Shown piece by piece: positions 29,202 to 58,813 of a stretch of 64,000 nt of DNA (within the stretch, counting starts at the first letter, position 1; each line of letters begins with the position of its first letter). The stretch lies in NCBI GenBank assembly GCA_903898675.1, contig CAIUGM010000014.1:186001-250000 (forward strand), read 5' to 3'. The notes beneath the pieces were generated by a model. The model saw only the letters and a program-made list of their open reading frames with translations. It had not been told where the DNA came from and searched no databases. Both the position numbers and the translations under genes were made by a program. The DNA comes from an uncultured Verrucomicrobiota bacterium (GTDB lineage Bacteria; Verrucomicrobiota; Verrucomicrobiia; Opitutales; Opitutaceae).

Positions 29202-29263
29202 TTCGCACAATCCCGTCCGTGGTTCTACACCAATTGTCTCGGAAACTGCGTTAAAAGTCTCGC
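29202..29263 (-). promoter_or_regulatory. sugar-locus promoter element, copy A
   Basis: Read on the minus strand: GCGAGACTTTT, then GCAGTTTCCGAGACAATT, GTGTAGAACC and finally ATTGTGCGAAG, which ends 46 bp from the xylose-isomerase-like start codon. The spacing from GACAATT to TTGTGCGAA is 21 nt, as in copies B, C, E and F. It is expected to drive the operon running to 21045. Confidence 0.8.
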
Positions 29264-29476
29264 GGGAAGTGTCTTCGATTTACCGGATCGTTACAGGCGG
29301 CAGTACCATTTTTTGCACCCAAAATGGGCCGCGGATGAGTGTGACACTCCTTGGATCCGCGCTGGTCGCGGGGCAATTTTCCCACTGGCCCGAATCGACT
29401 AATTGCCGGGCTGAGGACCGGGCATCATCCGTCAGTCCCCATTGCGGCCGGTGGCAAAAACACTCCGCGCAAAAGC
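29264..29476. other. non-coding remainder between promoter A and GH78
   Basis: Apart from promoter copy A, the 320-bp gap between the isomerase gene and the end of the GH78 gene shows no gene. No clear terminator for GH78 transcripts was found, so read-through from GH78 into the isomerase operon is possible. Confidence 0.4.
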
Positions 29477-31903
29477 TCACGGAAATACCAGCGTCTGCTC
29501 GCCCGGGTGCAGCGGCGCACTCTGCCCCTGCCAGACAAAGACTCCCGTGAGGTCCGCCGGCAGGATGATCTTCGCACTGAGTCCGCCCTGGCTCCTCCGC
29601 AAAGCCACGCCGATGTCGCCCTTCGGGTGCGGCAGAGAGCCCTCCGCGTGCTGCAAATGACCCAGGTGCGGCTCAATCCGCACCGTCGCGAAACCCGGCG
29701 ACGCCGGCTCGATCCCGAGGACGGTGGCGATCAATTCGTAAATCGGTGAAGCGCTCCACGCGTGACAGTCCGACCGGGTCGGCTCCGGCTGCTCGGCAAA
29801 GGTCGTCAGGCCCAACGCCAGCATGTCATGCCATGGTCCCAACATCGCGAGATACTCGTCACCCAGTCCCACCTGTTTCATCGCCCGCAAAAGATAGAAC
29901 CGAAAATAAGTGGTGCATTGGGTCAGCGAGCGGTCGGCCGCCACGCGTTGCATCAGGTCGCGCGCCGCCGCTCCCTCGATCGCCCCGGAAAGAACCGCGA
30001 GCACATTGGCGTGCTGGCTGAAGTTCCTCTTCTCCGCCGTGTCGGCGAACATCCGGCGCTTTTTATCCCAGCAGAGGCGCACGACGCTTTCGCGGAGTCC
30101 GGCCGCCACTTGCTCATAATGGCGCGCCTGGTCTTCGCGCCCCAAGGCGCGACAGACCTCCGCCGCGTGTCGGAGCGTCATCGCCAGCTGCAGGGACACG
30201 ACGCCGGAGCCACCTTCCTGCACCCCCTCGGGCGCACCGCGGTTCCCGTCCTGCTCGCTCCCGACCCATTCCTTGGCCCAATCGACAAAGGTCCAGAACG
30301 ACAGCGGCCCGAGCAGGCCGGTCTGCGGGTCGATCCGCCGCTCAAACCAGGCCAGCGCGTCACCCATGCCGGTCAGGCGGGCCCGGAGGAAGGCGTCATC
30401 CTGGCGATGCCACCAGTAATCGTGGATCATCTCGACCCAGAACAGGGCGAACGTGTTGATCAACTGCGGCGTGGCCGACGGATAGCGGCTCTGCGTCATG
30501 CCGTCAGGCAGCCGCGAATGGTCGAAGAGCTCGATCGCGTTTCGCATCAGCCGGTCGTCGCCCGCCGCATAAAGTGAAATCAAACTCTGGATCCGGGTAT
30601 CGCCCACGTACTGCAGCTGCTCGTAGTAAGGACAGTCGGTATAGGTCTCGAAGGCGCACAGCCGCGCGGTCCGCCAGCCCACCTGCCAGATCCGGGCCAG
30701 CTCGGGATCGTCGCTGGTGAAGGTGGCGCGCTGCTGCAACGGGTACGCGGTAAAAATTCCCTGCAAATCTTCCACCACCAGGGCTTCTTCGCCCGTCTCC
30801 ACCGCCAGCTGCAGGTAGCGGTAGGTGCGGAAATCCAGCGGCGCGAAAAGCCGGCGGGCCCCGCCATCCGGATGAAATTCATCCGTGCGCCCAAGGAGTT
30901 CGCGCCCGGCGATATCGTCCCGGTTGCCCTTCAACCCCTTTTGATCGAACAAGGCCTCGGCATAGGCGAGCGTCACCCGGCCACCCCGGCCGCCGCTCAC
31001 CGTCAGTTGCGGAAAGGCGCTGGTCTCAAATCCCTGGTCCAGCAGCACCGTCGCCTTCGTGTGCGCCGGCACTGTCAGCGGCGCCGTCCCCTCGACAAAA
31101 CCCGCCGCGGGCTGGACGCCACTGGAACGCCGCACCCGGGCGAGCCGCTGCGGCGTTTCCTCCATCAGGGGAATCGACCGCGGGGTGAGCCACCAGCTCA
31201 CCTCCGAACCCCAGCCATGCGGGGTGCCCTGCTCAAGCACCCGGGCCGCGGGCCAGGCCGAGTCATTGAAGCCGGCCGCCGACCAACCCCACGGGTGCCG
31301 CGCGGCGTCCACGCGGTCGCCCGGACCCGTGACAATGTACGTCTGAAGTCGCGCCCGGTCGGGCGGGATGGGCTGGTAGGCGTCGTCCCGGTTGGCCTTC
31401 CAGGTTTCATTCGTATCCACGAAATCCTCCGCCGCCGTGTCGCCCTGCAATAGAAAACCGGTCTGCCGGCTCATGATCGCATACGGCGCCTCCTCCCCAT
31501 AACTCCAGACCTGCGCGGCGAGCACATTGGTCCCCTCGCGCAACCACGGCGCGAGGTCGACGCTGTCGTAGCGCCAGTACATGGGATCGCTCCGCTGCGG
31601 GCCGAAACCGACCGAGTGCCCGTTGACAAAAAGCCGGTAACGCGCGTCACCCGTAACGTGGACCACGAAGTGCTCCGGCCGGCGGACCAGGTCGAACCGC
31701 TTGCGAAAGAGATAAACCCCGTAGCCGTTCTTGGGCGCGTCCGGCAGCGCAATCCAACTGGCCGGCCACCGTTCGGCCACCAGCCGCGCCGCCGGAGCGG
31801 GCAGACCGCTGCCGGCGTGGTCCGCGAACGGCGCGGACACCACCGGAACGGTCAGGGTAAGCAGGAAAAGAAAGGACAACCAGCCGCGGGGTAGCGTGTT
31901 CAT
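29477..31903 (-). CDS. GH78 alpha-L-rhamnosidase, secreted
   Basis: This 808-aa enzyme has a signal peptide (LSFLFLLTLTVPVVSA) followed by beta-domains (RLFVNGHSVGFGPQRSDPMYWRYDSVDLAPWLREGTNVLA) and an (alpha/alpha)6 catalytic domain with the GH78 motif DCPYYEQLQYVGDTRIQ, where the acidic residues lie, WVEMIHDYWWHRQDDAF, and the late TRSDCHAWSASPIYEL His. It should cleave alpha-L-rhamnose from rhamnogalacturonan or glycosides outside the cytoplasm. Promoter copy B lies 44 bp upstream. It is divergent from the DeoR operon and free of the leftward operon behind promoter A. Confidence 0.93.
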   Translation of the reverse strand: MNTLPRGWLSFLFLLTLTVPVVSAPFADHAGSGLPAPAARLVAERWPASWIALPDAPKNGYGVYLFRKRFDLVRRPEHFVVHVTGDARYRLFVNGHSVGFGPQRSDPMYWRYDSVDLAPWLREGTNVLAAQVWSYGEEAPYAIMSRQTGFLLQGDTAAEDFVDTNETWKANRDDAYQPIPPDRARLQTYIVTGPGDRVDAARHPWGWSAAGFNDSAWPAARVLEQGTPHGWGSEVSWWLTPRSIPLMEETPQRLARVRRSSGVQPAAGFVEGTAPLTVPAHTKATVLLDQGFETSAFPQLTVSGGRGGRVTLAYAEALFDQKGLKGNRDDIAGRELLGRTDEFHPDGGARRLFAPLDFRTYRYLQLAVETGEEALVVEDLQGIFTAYPLQQRATFTSDDPELARIWQVGWRTARLCAFETYTDCPYYEQLQYVGDTRIQSLISLYAAGDDRLMRNAIELFDHSRLPDGMTQSRYPSATPQLINTFALFWVEMIHDYWWHRQDDAFLRARLTGMGDALAWFERRIDPQTGLLGPLSFWTFVDWAKEWVGSEQDGNRGAPEGVQEGGSGVVSLQLAMTLRHAAEVCRALGREDQARHYEQVAAGLRESVVRLCWDKKRRMFADTAEKRNFSQHANVLAVLSGAIEGAAARDLMQRVAADRSLTQCTTYFRFYLLRAMKQVGLGDEYLAMLGPWHDMLALGLTTFAEQPEPTRSDCHAWSASPIYELIATVLGIEPASPGFATVRIEPHLGHLQHAEGSLPHPKGDIGVALRRSQGGLSAKIILPADLTGVFVWQGQSAPLHPGEQTLVFP

Positions 31904-31946
31904 GGGGTAGGTCAGGCGGAGGGGAAGAAGCCGCCGGGACCAAACC

Positions 31947-32009
31947 TTCGCACAATGCCGGCCCTGATTCTACACGGATTGTCTCGGAAGCTGCGTGGAA
32001 TGTCTCACG
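31947..32009 (-). promoter_or_regulatory. sugar-locus promoter element, copy B
   Basis: This is the best-conserved copy. On the minus strand: CGTGAGACATTCCACGCAGC, then TTCCGAGACAATCCG, GTGTAGAATC and ATTGTGCGAAGG. The two GAGACA boxes are 21 bp apart, and TAGAAT could serve as a -10 hexamer. It ends 44 bp from the GH78 start codon, and the other side faces the deoR gene. Confidence 0.85.
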
Positions 32010-32070
32010 TCGGGCGAACCCGGGTTTCGGGCCTGGCTTGGGATCGGGCGGGACAACCGGGTGAGCGTTT

Positions 32071-32088
32071 ATGCGCGTTATGCGCGTT
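32071..32088 (+). promoter_or_regulatory. tandem ATGCGCGTT direct repeat upstream of deoR
   Basis: ATGCGCGTT occurs twice head to tail (32071-32079, 32080-32088) and is preceded by GCGTTT. The pair lies 50 bp before the DeoR start. DeoR-family repressors often bind direct repeats near their own promoter, so this is a candidate autoregulatory operator. Confidence 0.5.
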
Positions 32089-32137
32089 TCAGCAGGTTTC
32101 GATTGAACTCCGGAAACGACCCCGCTTGCCTCGGCGC

Positions 32138-32905
32138 ATGCTTGGCCCCGAGCGACACCGTGCGATTCTCAATTTTCTGGCAAAGAGCGGCAGTGCCTCC
32201 AACAGCGCCCTGGGGACCCAGCTGCGCATTTCGCAAGCCACGCTGCGCCGTGATCTGGCGGTCCTGGCTGAGCGCGGACTGCTCAAGCGCACCCACGGGG
32301 GAATCCTGAATGTCGATTTCGGTCTCAGGGACATCTCCTTCCCGCAAAAAGCAACGAAGGCCGCCACGGTCAAAGCCCGCCTGGCGATTGCGACTGCCGC
32401 CCTCCTGCCGTCGGCAGGCACGGTTTTCATCGACAGCGGCACCACCTGCCTGGAAGTGGGCCGCGCCTTGCTCGACCGCCCGCTGCTCAACCTCTACACC
32501 AATTCGGTTCCCCTGCTCGCCCTGGGCGCAACCGCCCGGGGCAAGCTGACCTCGGTGGGCGGCGAACTCCGCCCGGTTAGCATGGCCCTGACCGGCTCGC
32601 TCGCGCAGAGCTGGCTTGAGCACCTGCACTTCGACGCCGTCGTGGTCGGGTGTTCCGGGATTGTCGAGGCCAAGGGTCCCGCGACCACCGAATTCTCGGA
32701 GGCATCCGTCAAGGTCGAGGCGCTGCGCCGCGCCCGGCTCCGCATTTTGGTCGCGCACGGCGAAAAATGGGACGGTCCGGCCGCCATCGTCTTCGCCCCG
32801 TGGTCGTCATTCACCCACCTCGTGACCAACCGCCCGCTGTCCCGCGCCCAACGGACCGCGCTGCATTCGGCTGGGGTCAAACTCGTCAATCCTTCCTCCC
32901 CATGA
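32138..32905 (+). CDS. DeoR-family transcriptional regulator
   Basis: This 255-aa regulator has an N-terminal DeoR winged helix (RHRAILNFLAKSGSASNSAL, ISQATLRRDLAVLAERGLLKRTHGG) and a C-terminal DeoRC sugar-phosphate sensor with the FIDSGTTCLEVGRAL phosphate-binding signature and FDAVVVGCSGI. It is likely a repressor released by a phosphorylated deoxysugar intermediate. ATG 32138 (MLGPERHR) fits the family start; the frame is open to 31955 but the extension overlaps promoter B. Its TGA overlaps the aldolase ATG by 4 bp (ATGA), so the two are translationally coupled. Confidence 0.93.
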   Translation: MLGPERHRAILNFLAKSGSASNSALGTQLRISQATLRRDLAVLAERGLLKRTHGGILNVDFGLRDISFPQKATKAATVKARLAIATAALLPSAGTVFIDSGTTCLEVGRALLDRPLLNLYTNSVPLLALGATARGKLTSVGGELRPVSMALTGSLAQSWLEHLHFDAVVVGCSGIVEAKGPATTEFSEASVKVEALRRARLRILVAHGEKWDGPAAIVFAPWSSFTHLVTNRPLSRAQRTALHSAGVKLVNPSSP

Positions 32906-33732
32906 AAACCGCCCGCCTCAACCGTCTCTTCAACCCGCAGACCCACCGCTGCTTCGACGTGGCCATCGATCATGGCTTCTTCAACGAAGCCTCGTTCCTT
33001 TCCGGCATCGAGGACATCGCAAAAGCCGTGCGGACCCTGACCGATGCCGCACCGGACGCGATCCAGCTGACCGTCGGCCAGGCGGGCCACCTGCAAAGCC
33101 AGCCGGTGCGGCCCAAGCCGGCCCTGGTTTTGCGCACCGATGTGGCCAATGTCTATGGCTCCCAGTTGCCCCGGCATCTCTTCTCGCGCCTGATTGAGGA
33201 ACCGGTCTTGCAGGCGGTCCGGCTTGATGCCACCTGCGTGGTGGTGAATCTGTTCCGGATCCCGGACCAGCCGGAACTCGCTGATCAATGCATCCAGAAC
33301 ATTCTGCGCCTGAAGCCCCAATGCGACCACTATGGGGTACCGCTCATGATCGAGCCCCTCGTCTTCCAGCCAAACACCAAGGCCGGGGGGTACATGGTTG
33401 ACGGTGATCCGGCGAAAATCATCCCGCTGGTGCGCCAAGCGGTTGAACTCGGCGCCGACATCATCAAGGCGGATCCCACGGATGATGTGACGATCTATCA
33501 CAAGGTGGTGGAGATCGCCGGCGGCATTCCGGTGCTGGTCCGCGGCGGCGGGCGCGCCCCCGAGTTTGAGATCCTGAAGCGCACCCAGGCGCTCATGGCG
33601 CAAGGTGCCGCCGGCATCGTCTATGGTCGCAACATCATCCAGCACCCGCAACCCGCCAAGATCACGCGGGCCCTGATGGCGGTCGTCCATGAGGGCGCCT
33701 CGGTGGCGGACGCGCTGAAGCTGCTCAACTGA
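32902..33732 (+). CDS. DhnA/FbaB-type class I aldolase
   Basis: This 276-aa TIM-barrel belongs to the DeoC/FbaB/LacD (DhnA) aldolase superfamily, which uses a Schiff-base Lys. Visible segments are HRCFDVAIDHGFF, PLMIEPLVF, the candidate catalytic Lys in ELGADIIKADPTDD, VLVRGGGRAP and AAGIVYGRNIIQHP. In this operon it is a candidate for cleaving a phosphorylated 6-deoxyketose (rhamnulose- or fuculose-1-phosphate) to DHAP and lactaldehyde, a job usually done by class II RhaD/FucA; this is inference. Start overlaps the deoR stop. Confidence 0.88.
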   Translation: MKTARLNRLFNPQTHRCFDVAIDHGFFNEASFLSGIEDIAKAVRTLTDAAPDAIQLTVGQAGHLQSQPVRPKPALVLRTDVANVYGSQLPRHLFSRLIEEPVLQAVRLDATCVVVNLFRIPDQPELADQCIQNILRLKPQCDHYGVPLMIEPLVFQPNTKAGGYMVDGDPAKIIPLVRQAVELGADIIKADPTDDVTIYHKVVEIAGGIPVLVRGGGRAPEFEILKRTQALMAQGAAGIVYGRNIIQHPQPAKITRALMAVVHEGASVADALKLLN

Positions 33733-33759
33733 CCAACCCCCACCCTCTGCCCGCCCGCC

Positions 33760-34896
33760 ATGAATACGAATGTCCAGTTACCCGTCCGCGTCGCCGTCAT
33801 TGGCGCGGGACTCATGGGCCGCGAAGTGGCCAGCGCCTTCGGGCGTTGGTTCGCCCTCCTCGACTGCCCCGTGAAGCCGGAGTTGGTCGGTGTTTGTGAC
33901 GTCAGCGCCGGCGCGCTCGATTGGTTCCGCCAAGCACCCGGGGTACGCTATTTTGAAACGGACCACCGCGCCCTGCTCGCCCATCCCGACATCGATGTCG
34001 TCTATGTCGCCGTGCCGCACCACCTCCATGAGGAGATTTATCTCGACGTGCTCCGCGCCGGCAAGGACCTGCTGGCCGAAAAACCCTTCGGGATCAACCT
34101 GGCCGCGGCGACCAAGATCCGGGACGAGGCCCAGCGCCTGCAACGATTCGTGCGCGTGTCCTCGGAATTCCCGTTTCTTCCGGCCGTCCAGCGCATCATC
34201 GCCCTCGCGCGTGCGGGCAACATCGGCCGGCCGCTCAGCGCGCGATGCGCGTTCCTGCATTGCAGTGATCTCGATCCGCAGAAGCCGGCGAACTGGAAGC
34301 GGCAGAATAAATTCTGCGGCGAGGCCGGGGTGATGAACGACCTCGGCATGCACGTGGCCCATGTCCCCTTGCGGCTGGGTTGGAACCCGACGTCGGTTTT
34401 CGCCCGGCTCCAGAAAGTTTACCTGACGCGCCCGGACGGCAAGGGCGGCCAGGTGAACTGCGACACCTGGGACAACGCCTCGCTCTTTTGCTCGGCGCAG
34501 ATCGGCGGCGAGTCGATCCCGCTGACCCTGGAAATGAAACGCCTGGCTCCCACCGAGACGAATACCTGGGAGCTGGAACTGCTGGGGACCGACAGTGGCG
34601 CCCGCTATTCGACGAAGGAACCCAAGACGCTCTGGCTCTACCACCGCGGCAAGGATCAGTGGTGGCAGAAGACCGACCTGGGTTTCGCCATGCCCTTCAA
34701 GACCATTACCGGCGGGATTTTCGAACCCGGGTTTCCTGATATCCTGATGCAGATGTGGGCCGCCTACCTGGCCGAGCGGGCCGGCCTGCTGGGCGAGCGA
34801 TTCGGCTGTGCCACCCCGGACGAGGCAGTCACCCAGCATAAGATCTGGGCGGCGGCCCTCGCTTCCCACTCCAGTCAGCGGGCAGTTGTGCCCTAA
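33760..34896 (+). CDS. Gfo/Idh/MocA-family oxidoreductase
   Basis: This 378-aa NAD(P)-dependent dehydrogenase opens with the Rossmann motif VRVAVIGAGLMGREVASAF and has the family EKP motif in DLLAEKPFGINLAAA, with a substrate-domain segment GEAGVMNDLGMHVAHVPLRLGW that contains the usual catalytic His region. It would oxidise a sugar or sugar derivative. It lies between the aldolase and the PfkB kinase, 27 bp after the former, so it may feed or drain the same deoxysugar pathway. The substrate cannot be told from sequence. Confidence 0.9.
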   Translation: MNTNVQLPVRVAVIGAGLMGREVASAFGRWFALLDCPVKPELVGVCDVSAGALDWFRQAPGVRYFETDHRALLAHPDIDVVYVAVPHHLHEEIYLDVLRAGKDLLAEKPFGINLAAATKIRDEAQRLQRFVRVSSEFPFLPAVQRIIALARAGNIGRPLSARCAFLHCSDLDPQKPANWKRQNKFCGEAGVMNDLGMHVAHVPLRLGWNPTSVFARLQKVYLTRPDGKGGQVNCDTWDNASLFCSAQIGGESIPLTLEMKRLAPTETNTWELELLGTDSGARYSTKEPKTLWLYHRGKDQWWQKTDLGFAMPFKTITGGIFEPGFPDILMQMWAAYLAERAGLLGERFGCATPDEAVTQHKIWAAALASHSSQRAVVP

Positions 34897-34988
34897 GCCA
34901 ACATGCGTGCCTTGATCATCAGTCCGTTTCATGGCGCCAAGTCCTGGCGTATCCTGTCCGAAAAGATTGGCCGTCTTCTTTCTGAATC

Positions 34989-36011
34989 ATGAGCAAGCCC
35001 CAGGGAATCATCGCGGGGGGAAATTGGATCGTCGACCACGTCAAGGTCATCGATGCCTGGCCGCCACAGGACGCCCTGGCCAACATCCTGAGCCAATCGC
35101 AAGGCAACGGTGGCTCGCCCTACAATATCCTGAAAAACCTGGCCAAGCTTGGGGCCGCCTTTCCACTTCGGGCGGTCGGCTTGGTCGGGGATGACCCGGA
35201 CGGCAGCTTCATCCTCGCCGATTGCCGCCAGCACGGCATCGATACCACGCAGCTTCGCGCCACCACCCTTGCCGCTACCAGCTACACGGATGTGATGACG
35301 GTGCGCGGCAACGGCCGGAGGACCTTTTTCCATCAACGCGGAGCCAATGCACAACTGTCGCCGGAAAACTTCCTCTTCCCGGCAAACCACGCGCGGCATC
35401 TTCACCTGGGATACGCTTTGCTGCTCGATACCCTCGACCAGATCGGCCCGGGTGGCATGCCCGCCCTGGGTGAGGTTTTGGCCCGCGCCCGCGTTCACGG
35501 GCTGAGCACATCGCTCGATTGTGTCAGTGAGAACAGCGATCGTTTCGCGACGGTCATCATCCCCGTCCTGCCGGCCGTCGATGTCCTCTTCGTCAATGAT
35601 TTCGAGGCGGAGAAACTGACCGGCCTGGCGCTCGGCCGGGGCCCCCGGCTTAACCGACCCTTGGTTGAGGAGGCCGGCCAACGGCTGATCGCCTTGGGCG
35701 TGAAGGAATGGGCCATCATCCATTTTCCGGAAGGAACCTGCGCCTGTTCCAGCCACGGCGACAGGGTATGGCGCCCGGCCCTGAACGTTCCGGAATCCCT
35801 CATTGCGGGCGCGGCCGGCGCGGGCGACGCCTTTGCCGCCGGCGTACTCTACGGCCTGCATGAAGCCTGGCCGATAAGCCGGTGCCTGTCGCTCGGGGTT
35901 TGCACGGCGGCGGCTTCTCTCCGGGAGGTTACCTGCTCGGATGGCGTACGCCCCCTGTCTGAATGCCTCCAGTTGGCGGACCAATGGGGCTTCCGCGACT
36001 TTGCCCCGTAA
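34989..36011 (+). CDS. PfkB-family carbohydrate kinase
   Basis: This 340-aa ribokinase-fold kinase has the substrate region IIAGGNWIVDHVKVIDAWP and NGGSPYNILKNLAKLGA, followed by GLVGDDPDG, and the C-terminal PfkB signature with anion hole and catalytic Asp, IAGAAGAGDAFAAGVLYGLHE. It probably phosphorylates a ketose produced by the locus isomerases. No FGGY-type RhaB or FucK kinase occurs in the window, so this is the best kinase candidate for L-rhamnulose or L-fuculose. rhaM follows 25 bp downstream. Confidence 0.92.
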   Translation: MSKPQGIIAGGNWIVDHVKVIDAWPPQDALANILSQSQGNGGSPYNILKNLAKLGAAFPLRAVGLVGDDPDGSFILADCRQHGIDTTQLRATTLAATSYTDVMTVRGNGRRTFFHQRGANAQLSPENFLFPANHARHLHLGYALLLDTLDQIGPGGMPALGEVLARARVHGLSTSLDCVSENSDRFATVIIPVLPAVDVLFVNDFEAEKLTGLALGRGPRLNRPLVEEAGQRLIALGVKEWAIIHFPEGTCACSSHGDRVWRPALNVPESLIAGAAGAGDAFAAGVLYGLHEAWPISRCLSLGVCTAAASLREVTCSDGVRPLSECLQLADQWGFRDFAP

Positions 36012-36035
36012 AATCAGCGCAGTTTATCTTAGCCA

Positions 36036-36383
36036 ATGGACCCCTCTTCCCTTGCCTCGCCGTCCAGGCGGATTCGCAAAGCTTTCGTGATGGCTGTCAA
36101 TCCCGGCCAAGCAGACGAATACGCCCGCCGCCACAATCCCATCTGGCCCGAGCTCGCGAGCGTGCTCAAGGAGCATGGCGCGCACAACTACTCCATTTTC
36201 TATCACCCGACGACCCGGCAGCTGTTCGCCTACGTTGAGGTGGAGGACGAAGCCCGCTGGGCCGCGGTGGGCCGCACTCCCGTTTGCCGGCAATGGTGGG
36301 AACATATGAGCGAGATCATGCCTTCTAACGAGGACCTGAGTCCCGCCAGCGCAAAATTAAACGAGGTTTTCTATCTCGCCTAG
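36036..36383 (+). CDS. rhaM: L-rhamnose mutarotase RhaM
   Basis: This 115-aa protein interconverts the anomers of L-rhamnose. It is strikingly close to E. coli RhaM in key stretches: [40 protein letters not shown] (with the catalytic His), [35 protein letters not shown] and LNEVFYLA. The first about 12 residues are an extra Ser/Pro-rich tail. It anchors the operon in L-rhamnose metabolism. Confidence 0.95.
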
Positions 36384-36408
36384 GCCGCGAAACTTAACCC
36401 CAAACCCC

Positions 36409-38817
36409 ATGACCATGAATACCCCCGGCTTAATTCGACTTCTGCTCATCAGTGCTTGCCTGAACAATCTGCTCGGCGCAGCGGAGATGCAATTCACCAG
36501 CCCGGCCTCCGCTCCCACCGAACCCCTGAGCCTTTGGTATCGTCAGCCGGCCGCCCAGTGGACGGATGCGCTGCCGATCGGCAACGGCCGCATCAGCGCG
36601 ATGGTGTTCGGCGGCGTGAACCGCGAACACCTGCAACTCAACGAAGGCACCCTGTGGGCCGGCGGCCCGTACGATCCGGTGAATCCGGAGGCCAAGGCGG
36701 CGCTCCCGGAGGTTCGCCGGCTGATTTTCGCGGGGAAATTTGCCGAGGGCGCGACCCTCATCAGCGCGAAGGTCCTGGCCAAGCCGCTCAAGCAGATGCC
36801 GTATGAAACCGCGGGCGACCTGTTCCTGGATTTTCCGGCGCAGACGGCCGTGGAACAGTATCGCCGCGACCTGAACCTCGACACCGGTGTCGCCACCACC
36901 ACCTTTAAAGCCAACGGCGTGACGTTTACCCGCGAAGCGTTCAGCAGCGCGGTGGATCAGGTGATCGTCTACCACCTCACCGCCGACCAGCCGGGGCAAA
37001 TATCCTTCACCGCCGGCCTGACCACGCCCCAGCAGGCGCAGGTCACGGTTGAATCCGGTGACACGCTGGTCCTGAACGGGGTGAACGGCGCCGCCAACGG
37101 CATCGCCGGCGCGCTGACGTTCCAGGCCCGGGTAAAAATCCTTCAGGACGGCGGCCAGGCCACGGCCACGGGGCAGACGGTTAGCGTGAGCCACGCCGAC
37201 TCGGTCACCCTCGTCCTCGCCCTCGCAACCAGCTACAAGAACTATCAGGATGTCAGCGGCAATCCTGAGGCCATCGTGACGGGCCGGATCGCAGCCGCGC
37301 TAAACCCGACGCCGGCCCGGCCGGCCGCGAGCAAAGGCAACCGGTATGCGGCATTGCTGCCCGCCCATGTCGCCGATCACCAGCAATTGTTCCGCCGGGT
37401 CGCCTTCAGCCTGGGCGAATCCGCGGCGACAGACCGACCAACCGACGAGCGCATCGCGCATTTCGCCACCGGCCGGGATCCGCAGCTCGCGGTGTTGTAT
37501 TATCAATTTGGCCGCTACCTGTTGATCGCCTCTTCGCGCGCCGGCGGCCAACCGGCAACGCTGCAGGGTCTCTGGAACGATTCCATGACGCCGCCGTGGG
37601 ACAGCAAATACACCGTCAATATCAATACCGAGATGAACTACTGGCCCGCCGAAGCCGCCAATCTCGGCGAGTGCGTCGAACCGCTCCAGGCGATGATCGA
37701 GGATTTGAGCCACAGCGGCGCGCGCACCGCCCAGGTCATGTACGGCGCCCGCGGCTGGGTGGTGCACCACAACACCGACCTGTGGCGCGCGTCCGCGCCG
37801 ATTGACGGCCCGCTCTGGGGCATGTGGCCGACGGGCGGGGCGTGGTTGTGCCAGACGCTGTGGGAGCACTACCTGTTCAACCGCGACCGGGTCTATCTGC
37901 AGCAGATTTATCCGCTGCTCAAGGGCTCGGCCCTCTTTTTCATCGATACCCTCGTGGAGGATCCAGCCACGCACTACCTCGTGACGAATCCCTCGCTCTC
38001 ACCGGAAAACTCGCATACCCCCGGCCAGAACAATTGCGCCGGACCGACGATGGACATGCAGATCATCCGCGACCTGTTTGCCGAATGCGTCACGGCGGCG
38101 GAAACGCTGGGCACCGACCCGGAATTCCGGGCCCAGGTCACCGCCGCCAGGGCGCGGCTCGCGCCGTCGAAGATCGGCCAGGCCGGCCAACTGCAGGAAT
38201 GGCAGCAAGACTGGGACATGGCGGCGCCGGAGCTCCATCACCGCCACGTGTCGCATCTCTACGGGCTTTACCCGAGCGCGCAGATCGGCGTGAACACGAC
38301 GCCCGCCCTCGCCGCGGCCGCGAAGAAATCGCTGGAGATCCGCGGTGACGAGGCCACGGGCTGGGGCATGGGCTGGCGGTTGAACCTATGGGCCCGGCTG
38401 CACGAGGGCGACCACGCGTACAAAATCCTGACCCTGTTGCTCAGCCCCGCCGGCGGCGACGGCGTCCAATACGCCGCGGGTGGCGGCGGGGTTTATCCAA
38501 ACCTGTTTGACGCGCATCCGCCGTTCCAGATCGACGGCAACTTCGGCGGTGCGGCCGGCATCATGGAAATGGTGCTGCAGAGCCAGAACGACGAAATCCA
38601 ATTCCTGCCGGCACTGCCGAAGGCCTGGCCGGACGGAAACTTCAAGGGCCTGCGCGCCCGCGGCGGGTTTGAAGTGGACCTGGCCTGGCACGACGGGAAA
38701 TTGACTTCCGCCACGGTGCGCTCGGTTACCGGCCATGCCGCCCACCTGCGCTACGGAGCCGTGAAGAAGGATATCGAACTCAAGCCCGGGCAAAGCTTCC
38801 AGTGGGATGGAAAATGA
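36409..38817 (+). CDS. GH95 alpha-L-fucosidase, secreted
   Basis: This 802-aa enzyme has a signal peptide (TPGLIRLLLISACLNNLLGAA) and the full GH95 layout. The N-terminal beta-domain carries LWYRQPAAQWTDALPIGNGR and NEGTLWAGGPYDPVNPEA. The (alpha/alpha)6 domain carries GLWNDSMTPPWDSKYTVNIN, NTEMNYWPAEAANLGEC, WVVHHNTDLWRASAPIDG and the late DGNFGGAAGIMEMVLQS. GH95 removes alpha-1,2-linked L-fucose (and in some members L-galactose) from xyloglucan and related glycans. Its stop overlaps the start of the next gene (ATGA), showing tight coupling. Confidence 0.95.
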   Translation: MTMNTPGLIRLLLISACLNNLLGAAEMQFTSPASAPTEPLSLWYRQPAAQWTDALPIGNGRISAMVFGGVNREHLQLNEGTLWAGGPYDPVNPEAKAALPEVRRLIFAGKFAEGATLISAKVLAKPLKQMPYETAGDLFLDFPAQTAVEQYRRDLNLDTGVATTTFKANGVTFTREAFSSAVDQVIVYHLTADQPGQISFTAGLTTPQQAQVTVESGDTLVLNGVNGAANGIAGALTFQARVKILQDGGQATATGQTVSVSHADSVTLVLALATSYKNYQDVSGNPEAIVTGRIAAALNPTPARPAASKGNRYAALLPAHVADHQQLFRRVAFSLGESAATDRPTDERIAHFATGRDPQLAVLYYQFGRYLLIASSRAGGQPATLQGLWNDSMTPPWDSKYTVNINTEMNYWPAEAANLGECVEPLQAMIEDLSHSGARTAQVMYGARGWVVHHNTDLWRASAPIDGPLWGMWPTGGAWLCQTLWEHYLFNRDRVYLQQIYPLLKGSALFFIDTLVEDPATHYLVTNPSLSPENSHTPGQNNCAGPTMDMQIIRDLFAECVTAAETLGTDPEFRAQVTAARARLAPSKIGQAGQLQEWQQDWDMAAPELHHRHVSHLYGLYPSAQIGVNTTPALAAAAKKSLEIRGDEATGWGMGWRLNLWARLHEGDHAYKILTLLLSPAGGDGVQYAAGGGGVYPNLFDAHPPFQIDGNFGGAAGIMEMVLQSQNDEIQFLPALPKAWPDGNFKGLRARGGFEVDLAWHDGKLTSATVRSVTGHAAHLRYGAVKKDIELKPGQSFQWDGK

Positions 38818-40862
38818 AAACCGTCACCACCCTCGTCGCAGCTGCCATGTTCGCGGCCCTGGCCGCCGGCGCCGACCGGGAATATTTTGTCTCGCCCGAT
38901 GGGTCGGAGACCAATCCCGGCACTGAGCACCGGCCCTTCCGAACCCTGGCCCAGGCCCGGGATGCCGTGCGGGCGGCCATTCCCACCATGTCCGGCAATA
39001 TCATCGTGACCATCGCGGCCGGCATCTACCCGGTGGCCGACCCGCTGGTTTTTGGCCCCCAGGATTCCGCGTCCGGAGCCTACCGGATCGTGTATCGTGC
39101 CGCCCCGGGGGCGAAACCGGTTTTGACCGGGGGGATTTCCGTGACCGGCTGGCAGCCTTACAAGGACGACATCTGGCAGGCGCCATTGCATCGCGATCGG
39201 AAACTCCGCGCCCTCTACGTGAACGACCGGCGCGCGTTCATGGCCCATACCGAAACCAAGGTTCAAGCCCGGGGCGGTTGGGGCACCTTCACGGTGACCG
39301 CCGGCCAGGCGCCGTGGGCCTGGCAAAGCGGCACGGCGGCTGACGGGATCAAATACCATCTCTCGGACCTGCCCAAGATCGTGCGCAACCCAACCGACGT
39401 GGAAATCGAAAACGAAACGACCTGGAACGCCAATTTTGTCGGCGTGCGCGAGATCACCACCGACGGGAGCGACTATATCTTCAAGCTCCAGCAACCCTAC
39501 GGCGCCATCGCCCAGCAGGTGGGCTGGGCGGCCGGCCTGACGCTCGACAGCCGGCAGATCATCCATAATGCGTTTGAGCTCCTGGACCAGCCGGGTGAGT
39601 TCTATTTCGATCGCGCCGCACAGACTGTCTACTACATCCCGCGTCCCGGCGAGGACCTGCGGACGGCCACCGTCATGGTTCCGGCCACGGAAACCCTGAT
39701 CAAACTCCTGGGCCGGGCGCCGGCGCAACCCGTGCGCAACCTCACCTTCGAGGGACTGACGTTCGCCTACACCGACTACAATCTGCTGGACGTAGCCGGT
39801 TCCCATGGCGTGGCCACCCTGCAAACCGCCACGGTCTACACGGCCTTCGCCAATCCCAACTGGCACCTGGATGTTTATCGCGCCTTCGACGTCCTGCCGG
39901 GCGCCATCGAAGCCGACGCCATCGAAGGGGTGGAATTCACCCGCAACACCGTAATCCACACCGGTTGCGAGGGACTGGTGCTGGGCAACGCCATCCAGGA
40001 TACGCGCGTGGTGGGCAACGTCATCCGCGACACCGGCGGCAGCGCCATCAGCCTCGGACATCCGCAGCACGTCTATGAGAACGATCCGCCGGACTTGAAA
40101 TACCCAACCGGGGCGGGCATCGAACACGAGAAGTTCCCCGCCGGGACGGAGTCCATCCCGCGCCGCGTGCTGATTGCGAATAATTTCCTCCCTGAGGATG
40201 CCGCACTCTTCAGCGGCCACACCATCATCACGGTCTTCCTGGCCAACGCGGTGACCATTGAGCACAACTGGATTCCCAATGCGCCCTATTCCGCCATCAA
40301 CGTCGGCTGGGGCTGGTGTGATTTCGACGGTTCGCCCGTGGCGGTGAGTCCGCAATGGGGCGTCGGTTCGCGCCCGGCCGTGTTTCCCGGCCGGCCCACG
40401 ACGGTCGCCGGCAACAATCGCATTCACGCCAACCGCGTGGAGAATTCCGTCTCTGTGCTGCATGATGCCGGCGCCATCTATACCCTGGGCAACCAACCGG
40501 GCACCGTGATCGACGGCAACTATGTTCGCCGGACAGAAAAGGGCATCTACACGGATGAAGGGTCGGCCGGGATTATCTCCCATGATAATGTCGTCCAATC
40601 ACCGTATACGGCGGCGCATTGGGCGGATAATTTTGGGCGCAAGCACAACATCACCATCGACCGTTATTTCGTCACGGAGGACAAGTTCACGGTCGCCGCG
40701 CCGGATTGCGCCGTAACCAACACGGTGTTGTGTCCGGCCGGCGCATGGCCGGCCGAGGCCCGGGCCATCATCAACGCCAGCGGACTGGAGCCCGCCTGGC
40801 GCAGCATTGTTCCGGCGGATTGGAAGCCGGCGCCGGAAGGCGTGGATCCTGCCGGCAAGTGA
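38814..40862 (+). CDS. secreted right-handed beta-helix enzyme, GH141-like
   Basis: This 682-aa protein has a signal peptide (MKTVTTLVAAAMFAALAAGA) and then DREYFVSPDGSETNPGTEHR, a beta-domain (GISVTGWQPYKDDIWQAPL), and beta-helix coils (FTRNTVIHTGCEGLVLGNA, TRVVGNVIRDTGGSAISLG, VIDGNYVRRTEKGIYTDEG). The layout matches GH141-like proteins, which include a fucosidase acting on rhamnogalacturonan II. It is a paralogue in layout of the 25.6-28 kb protein but lacks the PDZ tail. Start ATG 38814 overlaps the GH95 stop. Confidence 0.8.
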   Translation: MKTVTTLVAAAMFAALAAGADREYFVSPDGSETNPGTEHRPFRTLAQARDAVRAAIPTMSGNIIVTIAAGIYPVADPLVFGPQDSASGAYRIVYRAAPGAKPVLTGGISVTGWQPYKDDIWQAPLHRDRKLRALYVNDRRAFMAHTETKVQARGGWGTFTVTAGQAPWAWQSGTAADGIKYHLSDLPKIVRNPTDVEIENETTWNANFVGVREITTDGSDYIFKLQQPYGAIAQQVGWAAGLTLDSRQIIHNAFELLDQPGEFYFDRAAQTVYYIPRPGEDLRTATVMVPATETLIKLLGRAPAQPVRNLTFEGLTFAYTDYNLLDVAGSHGVATLQTATVYTAFANPNWHLDVYRAFDVLPGAIEADAIEGVEFTRNTVIHTGCEGLVLGNAIQDTRVVGNVIRDTGGSAISLGHPQHVYENDPPDLKYPTGAGIEHEKFPAGTESIPRRVLIANNFLPEDAALFSGHTIITVFLANAVTIEHNWIPNAPYSAINVGWGWCDFDGSPVAVSPQWGVGSRPAVFPGRPTTVAGNNRIHANRVENSVSVLHDAGAIYTLGNQPGTVIDGNYVRRTEKGIYTDEGSAGIISHDNVVQSPYTAAHWADNFGRKHNITIDRYFVTEDKFTVAAPDCAVTNTVLCPAGAWPAEARAIINASGLEPAWRSIVPADWKPAPEGVDPAGK

Positions 40863-44771: not shown

Positions 44772-44843
44772 CGCGGGCTTAGTGATCTTGCCGCGTGCTG
44801 GAGGCGGGTGGCGTCGGGGTTAGAATAGGCGAAAGCAAGCCCG

Positions 44844-44906
44844 CGTGAGACATTCGATGCGCGTTCCGAGACAATCGGCATAGAAACATTGGGCGCTTTA
44901 GGTAAG
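44844..44906 (+). promoter_or_regulatory. sugar-locus promoter element, copy D
   Basis: CGTGAGACATTCGATGCGCG is followed by TTCCGAGACAATCGGCATAG and AAACATTGGG. GAGAC boxes are 21 bp apart. The last box is degenerate (TTAGGTAAG instead of TTGTGCGAA) but keeps the 21-nt spacing. It sits after the GH31 gene and faces GH29, which would otherwise lack a promoter. Confidence 0.75.
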
Positions 44907-45053
44907 AATTGGAACGTGTCGATTTACCCCGGTCGTCCGAAGGCTCGCATTGCAAAGCAAGCGGCCGATTTTCTATCCTTTGAGCCTCCGCGCATCGGCG
45001 AACGGGCGATCGCATCGGACTGGACGGGCCTGCCGTGGGTCAACTTTCATTCC

Positions 45054-54699: not shown

Positions 54700-57204
54700 T
54701 CAGAGGACGGGCAGCGGCTGCCCTTTCGGCACCAGCGTTACCGTGTCGCCCACGGTCGTGGTGATAACGAGCAGCGGGCCGGAGACCGTGCCCACATTTT
54801 TGCCATTCCGGTAAAGCGAAATTTCCGTCTGGTCCCAGGGATTATTCACCCGGCAGGAACCGCCCTTGCGTGATTGGATTTCGACATAGGCGACCCGGCC
54901 GTTCTGCAGTGAGGCGCTGATAACAAACGCATCGCGCGCCGCCAGGCTAAACCGCGCATCCCATTCCCGTGGCCAGGAGGGGAACAGAGTGTTGACCGGC
55001 TCCTTGCCCGGGGCCGGCGGAACGCTCTGCAGCAGGGAAAGGTGCAGGACCTGCGAGGCCATGCCCAGGCGCTCGCATTCAATTGCGCCCGGCCCTTCGT
55101 CCAGCCCCAGCCGATTGCGCAACACCCCGATGCTCCATTCACCCCGGCCGGTATAATCCAATGAAGCGGCGTGCTCGCGCGTCTGCACGAGGGCCGGCAG
55201 CATGTGCCTGATCGCCTCGGTCAGACCGAGGTTGCAGGCCGCGATCGGCACCCGCGAAAACGTGGCCCCCTTCTTCATTTCGGACATGCCTTTGGCCAGC
55301 TGGCGGTTGAATTCCGCCAGTACCCGGTCGTGCAGTTCCCGGTTGTCGGTGCCAAACGCGCACAAGTCGTAATACTCCGCCGGCTCGAGCGCGGGCGGAA
55401 CCGGCGCCAGATTATCCAGCATCTCCTGCCAAAGCGGACGCATCTCGGCGTCCACCCCGAGAATCTCGGAGGCCCGGATCGCCAGGGGAAACATCTCGTG
55501 CATCGCCGACAGTTCCTCCGGCGTGTCATCGGTGCCCCAATCGCTCTCATGATTGTTCACGTGATGAATGTGGTATTTTCCGTCGGCGCCCTTGGTGACA
55601 TTCGGATAGTTGCGATAGAACTCGGCGGCGCCCCGGATGACCGGATAGCCCTGCGCCCGCAGCCACGCCTCGTCGAGCGAATAGGCGTAATGCAGCCAGT
55701 ACACATAGGCGATCTTCGCCATGCCCGAATTGATGTGTGACGTCCAGGCCACGGGGCCAAGTTCCCCGGTAAGCTGCTCGTTCCGGGCGTCGGGCAGAAT
55801 CCGCCAGTTCCAGCGGCTGTCCATGCCGCTCTTGCCCCGCGCGTAGCTCATGAACTCCGCGGAACGGTCCTTCCACGGCTTCTGCCCAAGATAGAGCGCG
55901 CGCATGTCCGCCGCCACGCCCTCGGGCAGATCCTCCAGACCGTCGAACCAGCAGGTCTCGGGGATCCAAATCCCCTGGCTGCCCCACTGCTGGCGGGCGG
56001 CGAGCGCAAACGAGTCGAGGATCCGGTTGTAAGTCTTAAATACCGGGGCCAGCAATTCCGGCCGGTTGGCCGGCTCCAGGTAGTTGAAATAGGTTCCCTG
56101 GTTGTTCCACCAATACTCCGATCCCCATTCACGCAAATCGCCATTCGAACCCCAGAGCATCCCACAGTAGCGCGGCATGTAGTCGCCCCGGGAACACGAA
56201 CCCATGATGTACAGGAAAAAGGTGTAGTTCGCCTCGATCTCGTCGGCCACGCCGTCGGCACTGTGCAGCTGCACAAACGACTTCGACCAGTAGTCGCTCC
56301 ACCAGCGACGATTGTCGGCCAGCAAATCATCGAATGGCCGGCTCGCCGCCGCCTCCAGCTGCTTCAACGCGAGAGCGGCAACATCAATCTTCGGATCATA
56401 ACTGACCGCACTCGCCATCAGGGTGGTGAATTTTCCCTGCCCCGGTGCCACGGAGAGCCGCACCGTCAATTCATTGTAGTAGCTCGCCTTGGTCTTCCGT
56501 CCGGTCACGCCAATCGCCACGGCCGAGGCGCTGTAGAAATCCCCCTCGCGGAACTCCTGGACCAAAATGATGCGGCCATCGCGGATTTCCAGCCGCGACT
56601 CGGCGGTATGCGCGTTAGTTTTTACCTGCGTGGCGTGACGGCTTAAGAGCTCGTAGCTTTTCTGCGGCACATAATCCATGGCGTAGCGCAGCATGCGGAG
56701 GTCGATGTTCACCGCCGCCGGATGATCGCGCCGATCGTCCGTCTCGACGGCGATCACGTCGCCGTCGTTCCAGGCGAGCGTGCGGGATGTGACGCCATTG
56801 CCCGTCACTGTGGTCAGGCCGTCATTGACCGACAAGTGCTGCTTGAACGCGCTGCCCGTGAAAATACCGTCGCCATAATCCTCCAGGCTCATGTCGACAT
56901 AGCCGCAGCCGCTGGAATAAGCATTGTTACCGAGCGGAAAACTCCGGCTGTTCTTACCCATGCAGAACAGATCCACCCGGTTGATCTGGAAGTGAAGGGC
57001 GGCCGGCGTGGTCCAGACGAGCGTCCCCGTGCGCCCGTTGCCAAGGGGCGTGCCTTCCACGCTTTGGGCCACCGGCGTGGGGTAGTTCAGGTCCGCCCGG
57101 GCGACCAGTTTCTCCTGGTCCGCCTTGGACAGGCTGCCGGCCTGAACCGGGGCGATCGCGAGCGCAAGCAAGGCAAACCCGAGGGGCCATGGGTATTTTT
57201 TCAT
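54700..57204 (-). CDS. secreted GH95-like six-hairpin glycosidase
   Basis: This 834-aa protein has a signal peptide (KYPWPLGFALLALAIAPVQA). Its opening resembles GH95 (SVEGTPLGNGRTGTLVW), and its helical domain contains YCGMLWGSNGDLREWGSEYW, WNNQGTYFNYLEPANRPELL and NNHESDWGTDDTPEELSAM, in which acidic residues could be catalytic. The usual GH95 NTEMNYWP segment is absent in that form, so it may belong to a sister or uncharacterised family. The ATG at 57204 fits the signal peptide. Promoter copy C lies 122 bp upstream. Confidence 0.75.
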   Translation of the reverse strand: MKKYPWPLGFALLALAIAPVQAGSLSKADQEKLVARADLNYPTPVAQSVEGTPLGNGRTGTLVWTTPAALHFQINRVDLFCMGKNSRSFPLGNNAYSSGCGYVDMSLEDYGDGIFTGSAFKQHLSVNDGLTTVTGNGVTSRTLAWNDGDVIAVETDDRRDHPAAVNIDLRMLRYAMDYVPQKSYELLSRHATQVKTNAHTAESRLEIRDGRIILVQEFREGDFYSASAVAIGVTGRKTKASYYNELTVRLSVAPGQGKFTTLMASAVSYDPKIDVAALALKQLEAAASRPFDDLLADNRRWWSDYWSKSFVQLHSADGVADEIEANYTFFLYIMGSCSRGDYMPRYCGMLWGSNGDLREWGSEYWWNNQGTYFNYLEPANRPELLAPVFKTYNRILDSFALAARQQWGSQGIWIPETCWFDGLEDLPEGVAADMRALYLGQKPWKDRSAEFMSYARGKSGMDSRWNWRILPDARNEQLTGELGPVAWTSHINSGMAKIAYVYWLHYAYSLDEAWLRAQGYPVIRGAAEFYRNYPNVTKGADGKYHIHHVNNHESDWGTDDTPEELSAMHEMFPLAIRASEILGVDAEMRPLWQEMLDNLAPVPPALEPAEYYDLCAFGTDNRELHDRVLAEFNRQLAKGMSEMKKGATFSRVPIAACNLGLTEAIRHMLPALVQTREHAASLDYTGRGEWSIGVLRNRLGLDEGPGAIECERLGMASQVLHLSLLQSVPPAPGKEPVNTLFPSWPREWDARFSLAARDAFVISASLQNGRVAYVEIQSRKGGSCRVNNPWDQTEISLYRNGKNVGTVSGPLLVITTTVGDTVTLVPKGQPLPVL

Positions 57205-57325
57205 AGAAAGCGGACGGTCATGAGTGGCGCGCAGCCACCTGCTTGAGCAAATGCGCAACAGGCCGGGCAGGCAGACGTTTCGGGCTGGCTCATTCGGGGT
57301 AGAAAGGGGCTCAGACAGGACCAAT

Positions 57326-57388
57326 GTCGCAGAATACCACCGTTCGCACTACATCCTTTATCTCGGAAGCTGCGTGGAACATCTCAAA
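57326..57388 (-). promoter_or_regulatory. sugar-locus promoter element, copy C
   Basis: On the minus strand: TTTGAGATGTTCCACGCAGC, TTCCGAGATAAAGG, ATGTAGTGC and ATTCTGCGACA. The upstream half (TTCCACGCAGCTTCCGAGA) is conserved; the downstream half is degenerate. The 21-nt spacing between the GATAAAG and TTCTGCGAC boxes is kept. It drives the GH95-like/GH3/GH3 run and lies back to back with copy E. Confidence 0.75.
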
Positions 57389-57426
57389 TAGCGATTCATC
57401 CGCGGAATGCGGGTGGAAGTTTTTAC

Positions 57427-57489
57427 CGTGAGATCATCAGTGCCGAATTCGCGACAATCGACGTAGCACTTCGGACTCGTTTGTGCGAA
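57427..57489 (+). promoter_or_regulatory. sugar-locus promoter element, copy E
   Basis: CGTGAGATCATCAGTGCCG is followed by AATTCGCGACAATCGACG, TAGCACTTCG and TTTGTGCGAAAC. GAGAT and GCGAC boxes are 21 bp apart, and the GACAATC to TTGTGCGAA spacing is 21 nt. It faces the beta-propeller gene starting at 57618, 129 bp away, and is 38 bp from copy C on the opposite strand. Confidence 0.8.
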
Positions 57490-57617
57490 ACTGCCGCTGC
57501 CTCGAATAATTCCCCAACCCCGTTTCGTCAGGCCCAAGGCCGTCGCCTTCGCGGCCCACCGTTTCGTCCCTACCGTCCCATCGGCCCCGGGCAACGTGGC
57601 CAGGCTTGATCCATCCC

Positions 57618-58736
57618 ATGTACCCCAAACTTGTCTGGTTGATCCGAACCCTGCTCGCACTCGCCTTGCCGGCACTCGCGACTGCATTGTCCGCCGCCCC
57701 GGACGGTTGGAACGTACCCGTGGGCGCCAAGCTCGCAGGGCTGCAACTCTTCGATGGCTGGACCGATCCGCGGGAAGTGAGCGGGGACGTGAACGCCCCC
57801 GGCTGGCCCGATTCGTCGTACATTCTGGGCACGGCCGCCAAGGGCTACGAACTCCACTACAGCTATTGCCGCTATGACTTCGAGGACCGCACGCTCCGGC
57901 GCAAGCTGAACGATGTGGGTCAGCGCAGGGCGGGCCAGCTTTACCCCGCCTTCAATCTCTACAAGGCCACAGTAAAAAACGGTGCATGGGTGTCGGAGCG
58001 ATTGCCGTTTAATCCCCCGGGCCCGCTGGATTATGGCGCCGGCGGCATGGCCGAAGGCGGTTCACCCTATGTTTTTGTGCGCTTCGACAAGCCGGCCCCC
58101 GGCATGAAGCACGCCAGTGCCACGATCCTCGAGGTCTGGCGGGATGCGGCCGGCCAATGGGGCACGCCCGTCGAACTCCCGTACCCGGTGAACACCCAAT
58201 GCGTCCAGGACAACCCGACGCTTTCGGCCGACGGTCTGACGCTGTATTTTGACTCGGACCGGAAGGATGCCGCCGGGACGGAGTGGAAGCCGCGGAACGG
58301 GCGGTTGTTCAACGGCAACCGCACAATTTATGTCAGCCATTATCGCGAGGGACGCTGGAGTGACCCGGTGGCGGTGGCCGGGGCGCCGAACAACGCGGGC
58401 ACATCGAACATGCAGCCCTTTTTATCGGTGGATGGGCTCAGTCTGTATTGGACCGGACACGACCGCGGATCGCCGGCGATCAATTGTTTTTACCGCGCGA
58501 CGCTGCAACCGGATGGAAGTTTCCAGTCGCCCGTGCTGGTCGCGGAACCCACGCCGGTCGGTCCCGGCATGGACGGCAAGGTCATCGCCCTGGGGGAGAG
58601 TTCGGTCTCGGCCGATGGCGAACTGCTGGCCTTCGTCTTCGTGCGGGCGAGAATTACGGGGAAAAATCCGCCGGTCATCGGTCCGGCGGACAAAATCGAG
58701 ATCGGCATCGCCCTCGCCCGCCGGATTCATCCCTGA
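57618..58736 (+). CDS. secreted beta-propeller (PD40/TolB-like) protein
   Basis: This 372-aa protein has a signal peptide (YPKLVWLIRTLLALALPALATALSA-type start) and at least three PD40/WD-type blades: CVQDNPTLSADGLTLYFDSD, SNMQPFLSVDGLSLYWTGHD and GESSVSADGELLAFVFV. No catalytic motif is seen. It may bind glycan or be a protein partner of the exported enzymes. The start is ATG 57618, with TTG 57606 upstream rejected. It stands alone between promoter copies E and F. Confidence 0.7.
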   Translation: MYPKLVWLIRTLLALALPALATALSAAPDGWNVPVGAKLAGLQLFDGWTDPREVSGDVNAPGWPDSSYILGTAAKGYELHYSYCRYDFEDRTLRRKLNDVGQRRAGQLYPAFNLYKATVKNGAWVSERLPFNPPGPLDYGAGGMAEGGSPYVFVRFDKPAPGMKHASATILEVWRDAAGQWGTPVELPYPVNTQCVQDNPTLSADGLTLYFDSDRKDAAGTEWKPRNGRLFNGNRTIYVSHYREGRWSDPVAVAGAPNNAGTSNMQPFLSVDGLSLYWTGHDRGSPAINCFYRATLQPDGSFQSPVLVAEPTPVGPGMDGKVIALGESSVSADGELLAFVFVRARITGKNPPVIGPADKIEIGIALARRIHP

Positions 58737-58750
58737 ACGCCCGAAATCCG

Positions 58751-58813
58751 GGTGAGATTTTTCACGCAGCTTTCGCCACAATCGGTGTAGCACCAACGGC
58801 CGCCTTGTGCGAA
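58751..58813 (+). promoter_or_regulatory. sugar-locus promoter element, copy F
   Basis: GGTGAGATTTTTCACGCAGC is followed by TTTCGCCACAATCGGTG, TAGCACC and CTTGTGCGAAGC. The GAGAT box is 21 bp from the GCCACAATC box, which is 21 nt from TTGTGCGAA. It lies right after the beta-propeller gene and faces the second GH78 gene, 184 bp downstream. Confidence 0.8.

Follow-up and report, generated by a model that had tools for sequence, protein, structure and literature searches.

A repeated promoter-type element lies in a 64,000-nucleotide stretch of an uncultured Verrucomicrobiota bacterium of the family Opitutaceae (the window; positions 186,001-250,000 of contig CAIUGM010000014.1, or C14). It is very probably an activator-dependent tandem-site promoter cassette of the AraC/XylS type, read by the AraC-family protein encoded at C14:265673-266593 on the reverse strand. 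Computation reveals ten sites of common geometry, as well as a regulator that co-occurs with such a site, and mostly adjoins it, in many genera. A first-pass annotation had regarded six copies as the signature of a deoxysugar/glycan regulon. The promoter-regulon reading is right, with targets such as GH78, GH29, GH95-like, FucP-like and RhaT genes, yet the regulon is local rather than genome-wide, and a candidate regulator can be named. The 21-bp tandem layout, the -10, four extra copies and the AraC-family regulator with its co-occurring orthologues go beyond that annotation.

The six copies in the window are real and far beyond chance. Alignment and matrix scoring place them at the previously described positions and strands, and they match one another without gaps over 64 bp. 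When each copy was omitted in turn and scored with a matrix from the remaining five, it lay 7.2-10.1 standard deviations higher than the mean of the window; only four or five positions ranked ahead of it, i.e., no more than the number of training copies. Over the 64 kb, the six-copy matrix gave 68.7 for the weakest copy and -9.3 for the best non-copy position, which ranked seventh; as the annotation had observed, there was no copy in window positions 1-18 kb. A sequence-only model built from seven copies (R1) returned ten matches in the whole assembly (3,519,022 bases, 40 contigs), all at E ≤ 4.2e-12 and confined to a 60-kb stretch (C14:215,183-275,723), six in the window and four to its right. 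All ten point at a gene on inspection, as had been claimed for the six. No eleventh copy was detected in the 3.52-Mb assembly by R1 at E ≤ 10, or in the 124 kb around the copies by a second model, R2, whose eleventh match had an E value of 7.7. Among 38 genomes (G000, which is the present one, 20 of the same genus, four of the same family and 13 of the same order), R1 found sites in G000 only and two partial matches in G028 (E 0.02-0.05). The proposed scan of the genome and its relatives thus yielded four additional copies, but the expectation of further members elsewhere in the genome is not supported, given the confinement of all ten to one stretch and the absence of elements, according to R1, from the 20 same-genus genomes.

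Conservation among the ten copies is high at positions 4-43 and 56-67 of the element and drops outside. Pairwise identity is 0.72 in the distal site, 0.77 in the proximal site, 0.50 in the spacer and 0.72 in the -10 region, and 0.27 in the upstream flank and 0.36 and 0.27 in the downstream flanks. The conserved block extends to T67 (10/10 copies), so the element measures about 64-67 bp instead of 62-63 bp. Positions 4-24 resemble positions 25-45: a shift of 21 is the best of 40 shifts in the ten copies (z 3.3), and its score was matched by none of 2000 column permutations, either for these ten or for a 28-site alignment comprising the ten and 18 sites from 13 other genomes. All 28 aligned sites share A63 and T67. 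Judged from these patterns, the element reads as a direct pair of GAGA(C/T) sites with a 21-bp spacing; the proximal member overlaps the predicted -35, and an extended -10 (TGnnAnnnT) follows. Such an overlap fits the geometry if the -10 corresponds to positions 62-67, a -10 seen in only 11/17 and 2/5 further sites: nAnnnT occurs within one base of its expected place in 11 of 17 class sites outside the alignment (control places, 2/17 and 3/17) and in two of five sites on named contigs (control places, 0/5 and 1/5). Sites of genus g42 mostly have TAAAAT or TAGAAT at the -10, often preceded by TG-n. With this placement of the -10, TTGTGCGAA would be the upstream part of the extended -10, and GTAGAA may represent the proximal site's second box, in its overlap with the -35. 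The reported 21-nt distance from GACAATC to TTGTGCGAA holds in all six window copies, and in all ten because they align ungapped; the box letters themselves differ in two copies, since TTGTGCGAA reads TTTAGGTAA in the copy at 44843 (+), while in the copy at 57389 (-) TTCTGCGAC replaces TTGTGCGAA and GATAAAG replaces GACAATC. A dyad with the inverted arms TTCCGAGACAATC and GATTGTGCGAA was also considered and rejected, as inverted-shift scores were unremarkable and the sites of other genomes do not preserve these arms.

Table 1. Coordinates of the element copies, the predicted parts of copy 1 and associated genes (window positions, or contig positions where prefixed C14)
Feature	Position	Strand	Remarks
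Copy 1	29199..29265	-	tandem AraC-type site and extended -10 (predicted), upstream of isomerase gene 28113-29156; 42 nt from position 67 to ATG
Copy 1, putative distal activator site (positions 4-20)	29246..29262	-	from column conservation; role predicted
Copy 1, putative proximal activator site (positions 25-43)	29223..29241	-	overlaps predicted -35 (39-44), which is assigned by spacing
Copy 1, predicted extended -10 (positions 59-67, TG-n-nAnnnT)	29199..29207	-	A63 and T67 invariant in 28-site alignment
Copy 2	31944..32010	-	upstream of GH78 29477-31903
Copy 3	44843..44909	+	upstream of GH29 (ORF 44889-46751, true start probably downstream); TTGTGCGAA box degenerate
Copy 4	57323..57389	-	upstream of GH95-like/DUF5703 (ORF 54700-57324), perhaps with GH3 genes behind; operon extent judged from gene order
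Copy 5	57426..57492	+	upstream of PD40 beta-propeller gene 57606-58736
Copy 6	58750..58816	+	upstream of second GH78 (coding part of ORF 58448-62239)
Copy 7	C14:259483-259549	-	beyond window edge
Copy 8	C14:265399-265465	-	beyond window edge
Copy 9	C14:267755-267821	+	beyond window edge
Copy 10	C14:275650-275716	+	beyond window edge
AraC-family regulator (candidate)	C14:265673-266593	-	outside window, about 200 bp upstream of copy 8, same strand
Xylose-isomerase-like protein	28113..29156	-	target that carries the site in many genera
DeoR-family regulator	31955..32905	+	coding part starts downstream of open reading frame (ORF) start; unlikely reader of the element

The AraC-family gene appears to be the best candidate for the regulator: of the nine genes with a PF12833 domain in the genome, it is the only one within the element-bearing stretch. 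The predicted protein contains a C-terminal helix-turn-helix domain (HTH_18, PF12833; 77.6 bits, curated cut-off 33.6), an N-terminal cupin domain (PF07883; 29.7 bits, cut-off 27.2) and a match to AraC_binding (PF02311; 26.0 bits, cut-off 21.1). According to the NCBIfam models, it is neither an AraC equivalog (52.6 bits, cut-off 208) nor a RhaS equivalog (51.2 bits, cut-off 288). Its closest named relative, from an Opitutaceae metagenome-assembled genome (MAG), is 72% identical, and its orthologues are mostly 43-57% identical. In a comparison of recognition helices, the orthologues were alike and unlike weaker relatives; as the latter were represented by only five usable rows and G187 also deviates, the comparison was given no weight.

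Regulator and element occur together across the order and the class. Among 322 genomes of the order, 20 have an orthologue at E ≤ 1e-50 (43-50% identical, 32% in G187); R2 found a site in 19 of these versus 8 of the 302 others (Fisher p 2e-23), or, counted by genus, in 6/6 with an orthologue versus 1/89 others. At a cut-off of E ≤ 1e-30, a site was present in 22/52. As R2 had been trained on the sites of G000 and of 13 of these order genomes, found within 20 kb of araC, the order-level test has some circularity, which is smaller at the class level. An orthologue at E ≤ 1e-75 was detected in 21 of 295 genomes of the class, 19 of which have a site; without G000 and G242 (both used in training) and G092 (whose genus was used), the ratio is 16/18 versus 6/274 for the other genomes (Fisher p 1e-19), and at E ≤ 1e-40 the site is present in 20/25. 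Infernal's stricter filters were applied in both scans. Three genomes with an orthologue were missed: araC is cut by a contig end in G318, the contig stops 107 bp beyond the araC match in G526, and in G397 a pair of GAGAT boxes with 21-bp spacing receives no score from the model.

In 14 of the 16 class genomes left out of training, a site divergent from araC is located at a distance of 43-123 bp, counted from where the araC match starts; it is 1.8 kb away in G381 and on a different contig in G507. With the exception of G519, the site is also immediately upstream of an orthologue of the copy-1 isomerase (15/16; 62-76% identity). In 9 of 15 class isomerase promoters, the ATG follows position 67 by 7-13 nt (one read by eye). 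A promoter could not fit between the element and such a start codon; therefore, the core promoter should lie within it and the isomerase mRNA should be nearly leaderless there. Similarly, only 10-12 nt separate the site end from the isomerase start codon in seven g42 loci (L048, L050, L051, L053, L054, L059 and L060), whose isomerase mRNAs are probably nearly leaderless.

In named-contig loci outside the training set, a site was found beside araC in five of seven orthologue loci versus 0/5 controls at E ≤ 1, namely in Opitutaceae STC_40 and in MAGs labelled Chthoniobacter, Pedosphaera, Chthoniobacteraceae and Spartobacteria. Four of the five sites face the isomerase and the Pedosphaera site faces a CotH gene; none is identical to a class-set site, and the source genomes of the two collections may overlap. 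The two misses showed a weak match by araC (L088, E 0.04) and a partial one (L086, E 1.6), and with filters off two control loci also gave weak matches (L110, E 0.011; L111, E 0.27). With regard to the isomerase itself, it was detected at E ≤ 1e-160 in 18 order genomes, 17 of them on the strong-orthologue list (exception, G326), and as fragments in G137 and G246, which are on that list, and in G286. G281 and G327 have a 54% identical isomerase relative and neither a strong araC orthologue nor a site at E 0.01.

The genes that the ten copies directly face are the isomerase, three GH78, one GH29 and two GH95-like genes, and genes for a beta-propeller, a TonB receptor and a cytochrome-like protein. 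Judged by gene order, the copy 1 unit would comprise the xylose-isomerase-like gene, a beta-helix/PDZ gene, a FucP-like transporter (275 bits, slightly below the cut-off of 280.4), RhaT and an arabinose-isomerase-C protein. The nearest solved relatives of the isomerase are xylose isomerases, which is insufficient to name its sugar. Copies 2 and 3 face GH78 and GH29, respectively, copy 4 a GH95-like/DUF5703 gene followed by GH3 genes, copy 5 the PD40 propeller, and copy 6 a GH78 gene followed by GDSL and SASA esterases. Beyond the window, the predicted units are GH95-like and GH3 (copy 7), TonB receptor, GH29 and DUF6786 (copy 8), a PSCyt1/PSCyt2/PSD1 protein, DUF1501, NHL and a cytochrome-like protein (copy 9), and GH78 and a DUF5597 gene (copy 10). 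The distance from position 67 to a plausible start, with start codons chosen by judgement, is about 40-220 nt over the ten copies; for copy 3 it may be anywhere between 6 and 144 nt. Copies 4 and 5 form a divergent promoter pair (window 57323-57492), back to back with 36 bp between them. Genus g42 also has R2 sites in front of PSCyt/PSD-type genes (L073 and L080) and a DUF1501 gene (L077), like copy 9, whose target is L068:2033-5281; the L081 gene appears similar to that of L080. Such cytochrome-like proteins may thus be further members of the regulon.

According to the proposed mechanism, two monomers of the AraC-type protein would occupy the two direct sites, which are spaced by 21 bp (two helical turns) and each consist of a GAGA(C/T) box and a second box about 10 bp further. 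The ligand-bound dimer, with its proximal site over the -35, would recruit RNA polymerase to the extended -10 about 20 bp on; a start near position 74 would put the distal site approximately between -70 and -54 and the proximal one between -49 and -33. Activation rather than repression is predicted because the sites lie upstream of and overlap the -35. The regulator probably senses a sugar or a breakdown product through its cupin domain, and induction would turn on ten promoters over 60 kb, and with them the isomerase and transporters, the GH78, GH29, GH95-like and GH3 hydrolases, the TonB receptor and the cytochrome-like/DUF1501 cluster. The regulon probably serves the use of complex sugars rich in fucose and rhamnose. 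Binding, activation, the transcription start, operon extents and the inducer are all predictions from DNA sequence.

Several observations weigh against this mechanism. Sites without a strong orthologue occur in 8/302 order genomes (six of these in genus g42) and 6/274 class genomes, the cut-offs for a strong orthologue (E 1e-50 and 1e-75) were placed at gaps visible in the tables, and related genomes are not independent. The full matrix of the ten own copies ranks the site best in only 11/18 orthologue loci; when the matrix is limited to the two sites, its top match exceeds all shuffles in 3/18 loci (controls 0/12). The 21-bp repeat is outside the four best shifts in nine g42 sites and ranks second in the remaining nine non-own sites, and the second boxes differ in other genomes (GTGCCA vs. 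GCGTAG). The -10 is one base off its own spacing in 8/28 aligned rows and less clear outside the aligned set (11/17; 2/5). In addition, no element was found on the deoR-aldolase-oxidoreductase-kinase-GH95-GH141-transporter-GH31 unit or on the pfkB-araC unit.

Among the alternatives, a regulator encoded elsewhere, such as a LacI-type protein or an alternative sigma factor, could read the element and leave the AraC gene a passenger. The AraC link is drawn from sequence, which gives this explanation some room, but it is improbable in view of the adjacency and co-occurrence of araC over many genera; moreover, tandem non-palindromic sites with a 21-bp period suit AraC-type proteins, as judged from the sites described in PMC4514859. 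A smaller chance still is given to an operator at which a DeoR-family protein represses until a sugar phosphate accumulates. The deoR gene is indeed divergent from copy 2 amid sugar genes; however, DeoR relatives and the element fail to co-occur (3/18 genomes, Fisher p 0.18), the site adjoins the araC orthologue instead in the 14 genomes mentioned above, and no element points towards the deoR-led unit (window ~32100-44771), which its own DeoR protein may regulate.

It is scarcely credible that the element acts as an RNA leader (riboswitch or attenuator) rather than as DNA sites. Its place a short distance ahead of start codons, followed by a pyrimidine-rich tract, would suit a leader, but the seven copies analysed share no consensus pairs, the window has no Rfam match at gathering score, and, because the ATG is so close in 9/15 class promoters, a leader would require its own promoter upstream of the element. 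An equally slight probability attaches to a MITE-like mobile repeat with no regulatory role. Spacers between the sites and the -10 are indeed alike (50% pairwise among the ten copies vs. 26% among randomly chosen flank pieces), and the cassettes may accordingly have arisen by copying; however, all ten point at genes with constant spacing, the searches found none beyond the stretch, and one gene retains this site in different genera.

The similarity of the spacers suggests that cassettes were copied within the stretch, shared constraint being the alternative; copies 1 and 8, ahead of unrelated genes, are 86% alike. It is tentatively proposed, with more doubt than confidence, that an ancient module found throughout the class (AraC regulator, tandem-site promoter and isomerase, the isomerase mRNA being nearly leaderless in many species) was expanded here by copying a cassette of about 64 bp onto unrelated genes, giving a self-contained ten-promoter regulon whose regulator, sites and targets can travel together. 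Horizontal transfer is not supported, since the G+C content of the cluster (0.635) hardly differs from that of its flanks (0.646 and 0.650). A phage-type integrase gene lies at the left end of the sugar genes (window 20085-20981). No tRNA gene was detected in the window by ARAGORN and no insertion site was established there; likewise, no empty site was established at the island edges, where the left-edge ORF (16351-17967) was matched in G000 only (1/21), lacks a Pfam match and is possibly no real gene, and the right-edge photolyase was matched in 16/21.

In the open-licence PMC literature, no paper was found on this regulon or motif in Verrucomicrobiota, or on how this group switches on such sugar-gene clusters. 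The present analysis offers a named regulator with a predicted binding motif, together with a model of the promoter and a list of targets, valid in many genera. As regulator and switch recur together in relatives, their pairing is directly testable by means of a single protein and a single reporter, and searches with the motif can reveal target genes in the genomes of uncultured bacteria.

Comparable systems are known. At pBAD, the araI1-I2 half-sites of AraC form a direct repeat upstream of and overlapping the -35, an arrangement resembling that predicted here, although the present regulator falls outside the AraC equivalog (52.6 vs. 208 bits). RhaS and RhaR are AraC-family activators of L-rhamnose genes in E. 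coli, and RhaS sites are inverted repeats; the sites described here are direct, and the regulator is outside the RhaS equivalog as well (51.2 vs. 288 bits). AraC half-site sequences are among those printed in PMC4514859. Marine Verrucomicrobiota loci for fucose and rhamnose, as outlined in parts of PMC8857213, contain fucP and rhaT transporters, isomerases, GH29, GH78 and GH141, i.e., the same kinds of genes as here; the words AraC and promoter occur zero times in the main text of that paper. The closest parallel in layout is XylS at the Pm promoter of the Pseudomonas TOL plasmid, where direct sites of the form TGCA-N6-GGNTA-N6 occur twice with a 21-bp period, a period that also follows by count from the XylS and MekR sites as printed in PMC4514859. 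Each XylS site has a box A and a box B, and bound XylS recruits RNA polymerase at Pm, according to the relevant passages of PMC5481539; the title of a work cited there indicates that the binding sites of XylS and RNA polymerase overlap. The element shares with these descriptions of Pm the two direct two-box sites and their 21-bp period; it differs in its boxes (GAGAC and GYG-type, with TGCA-N6-GGNTA not present among the conserved boxes), in its regulator and in having ten sites in one stretch rather than one promoter. The kind of promoter, an AraC/XylS tandem-site promoter, is known, and the regulon is new.

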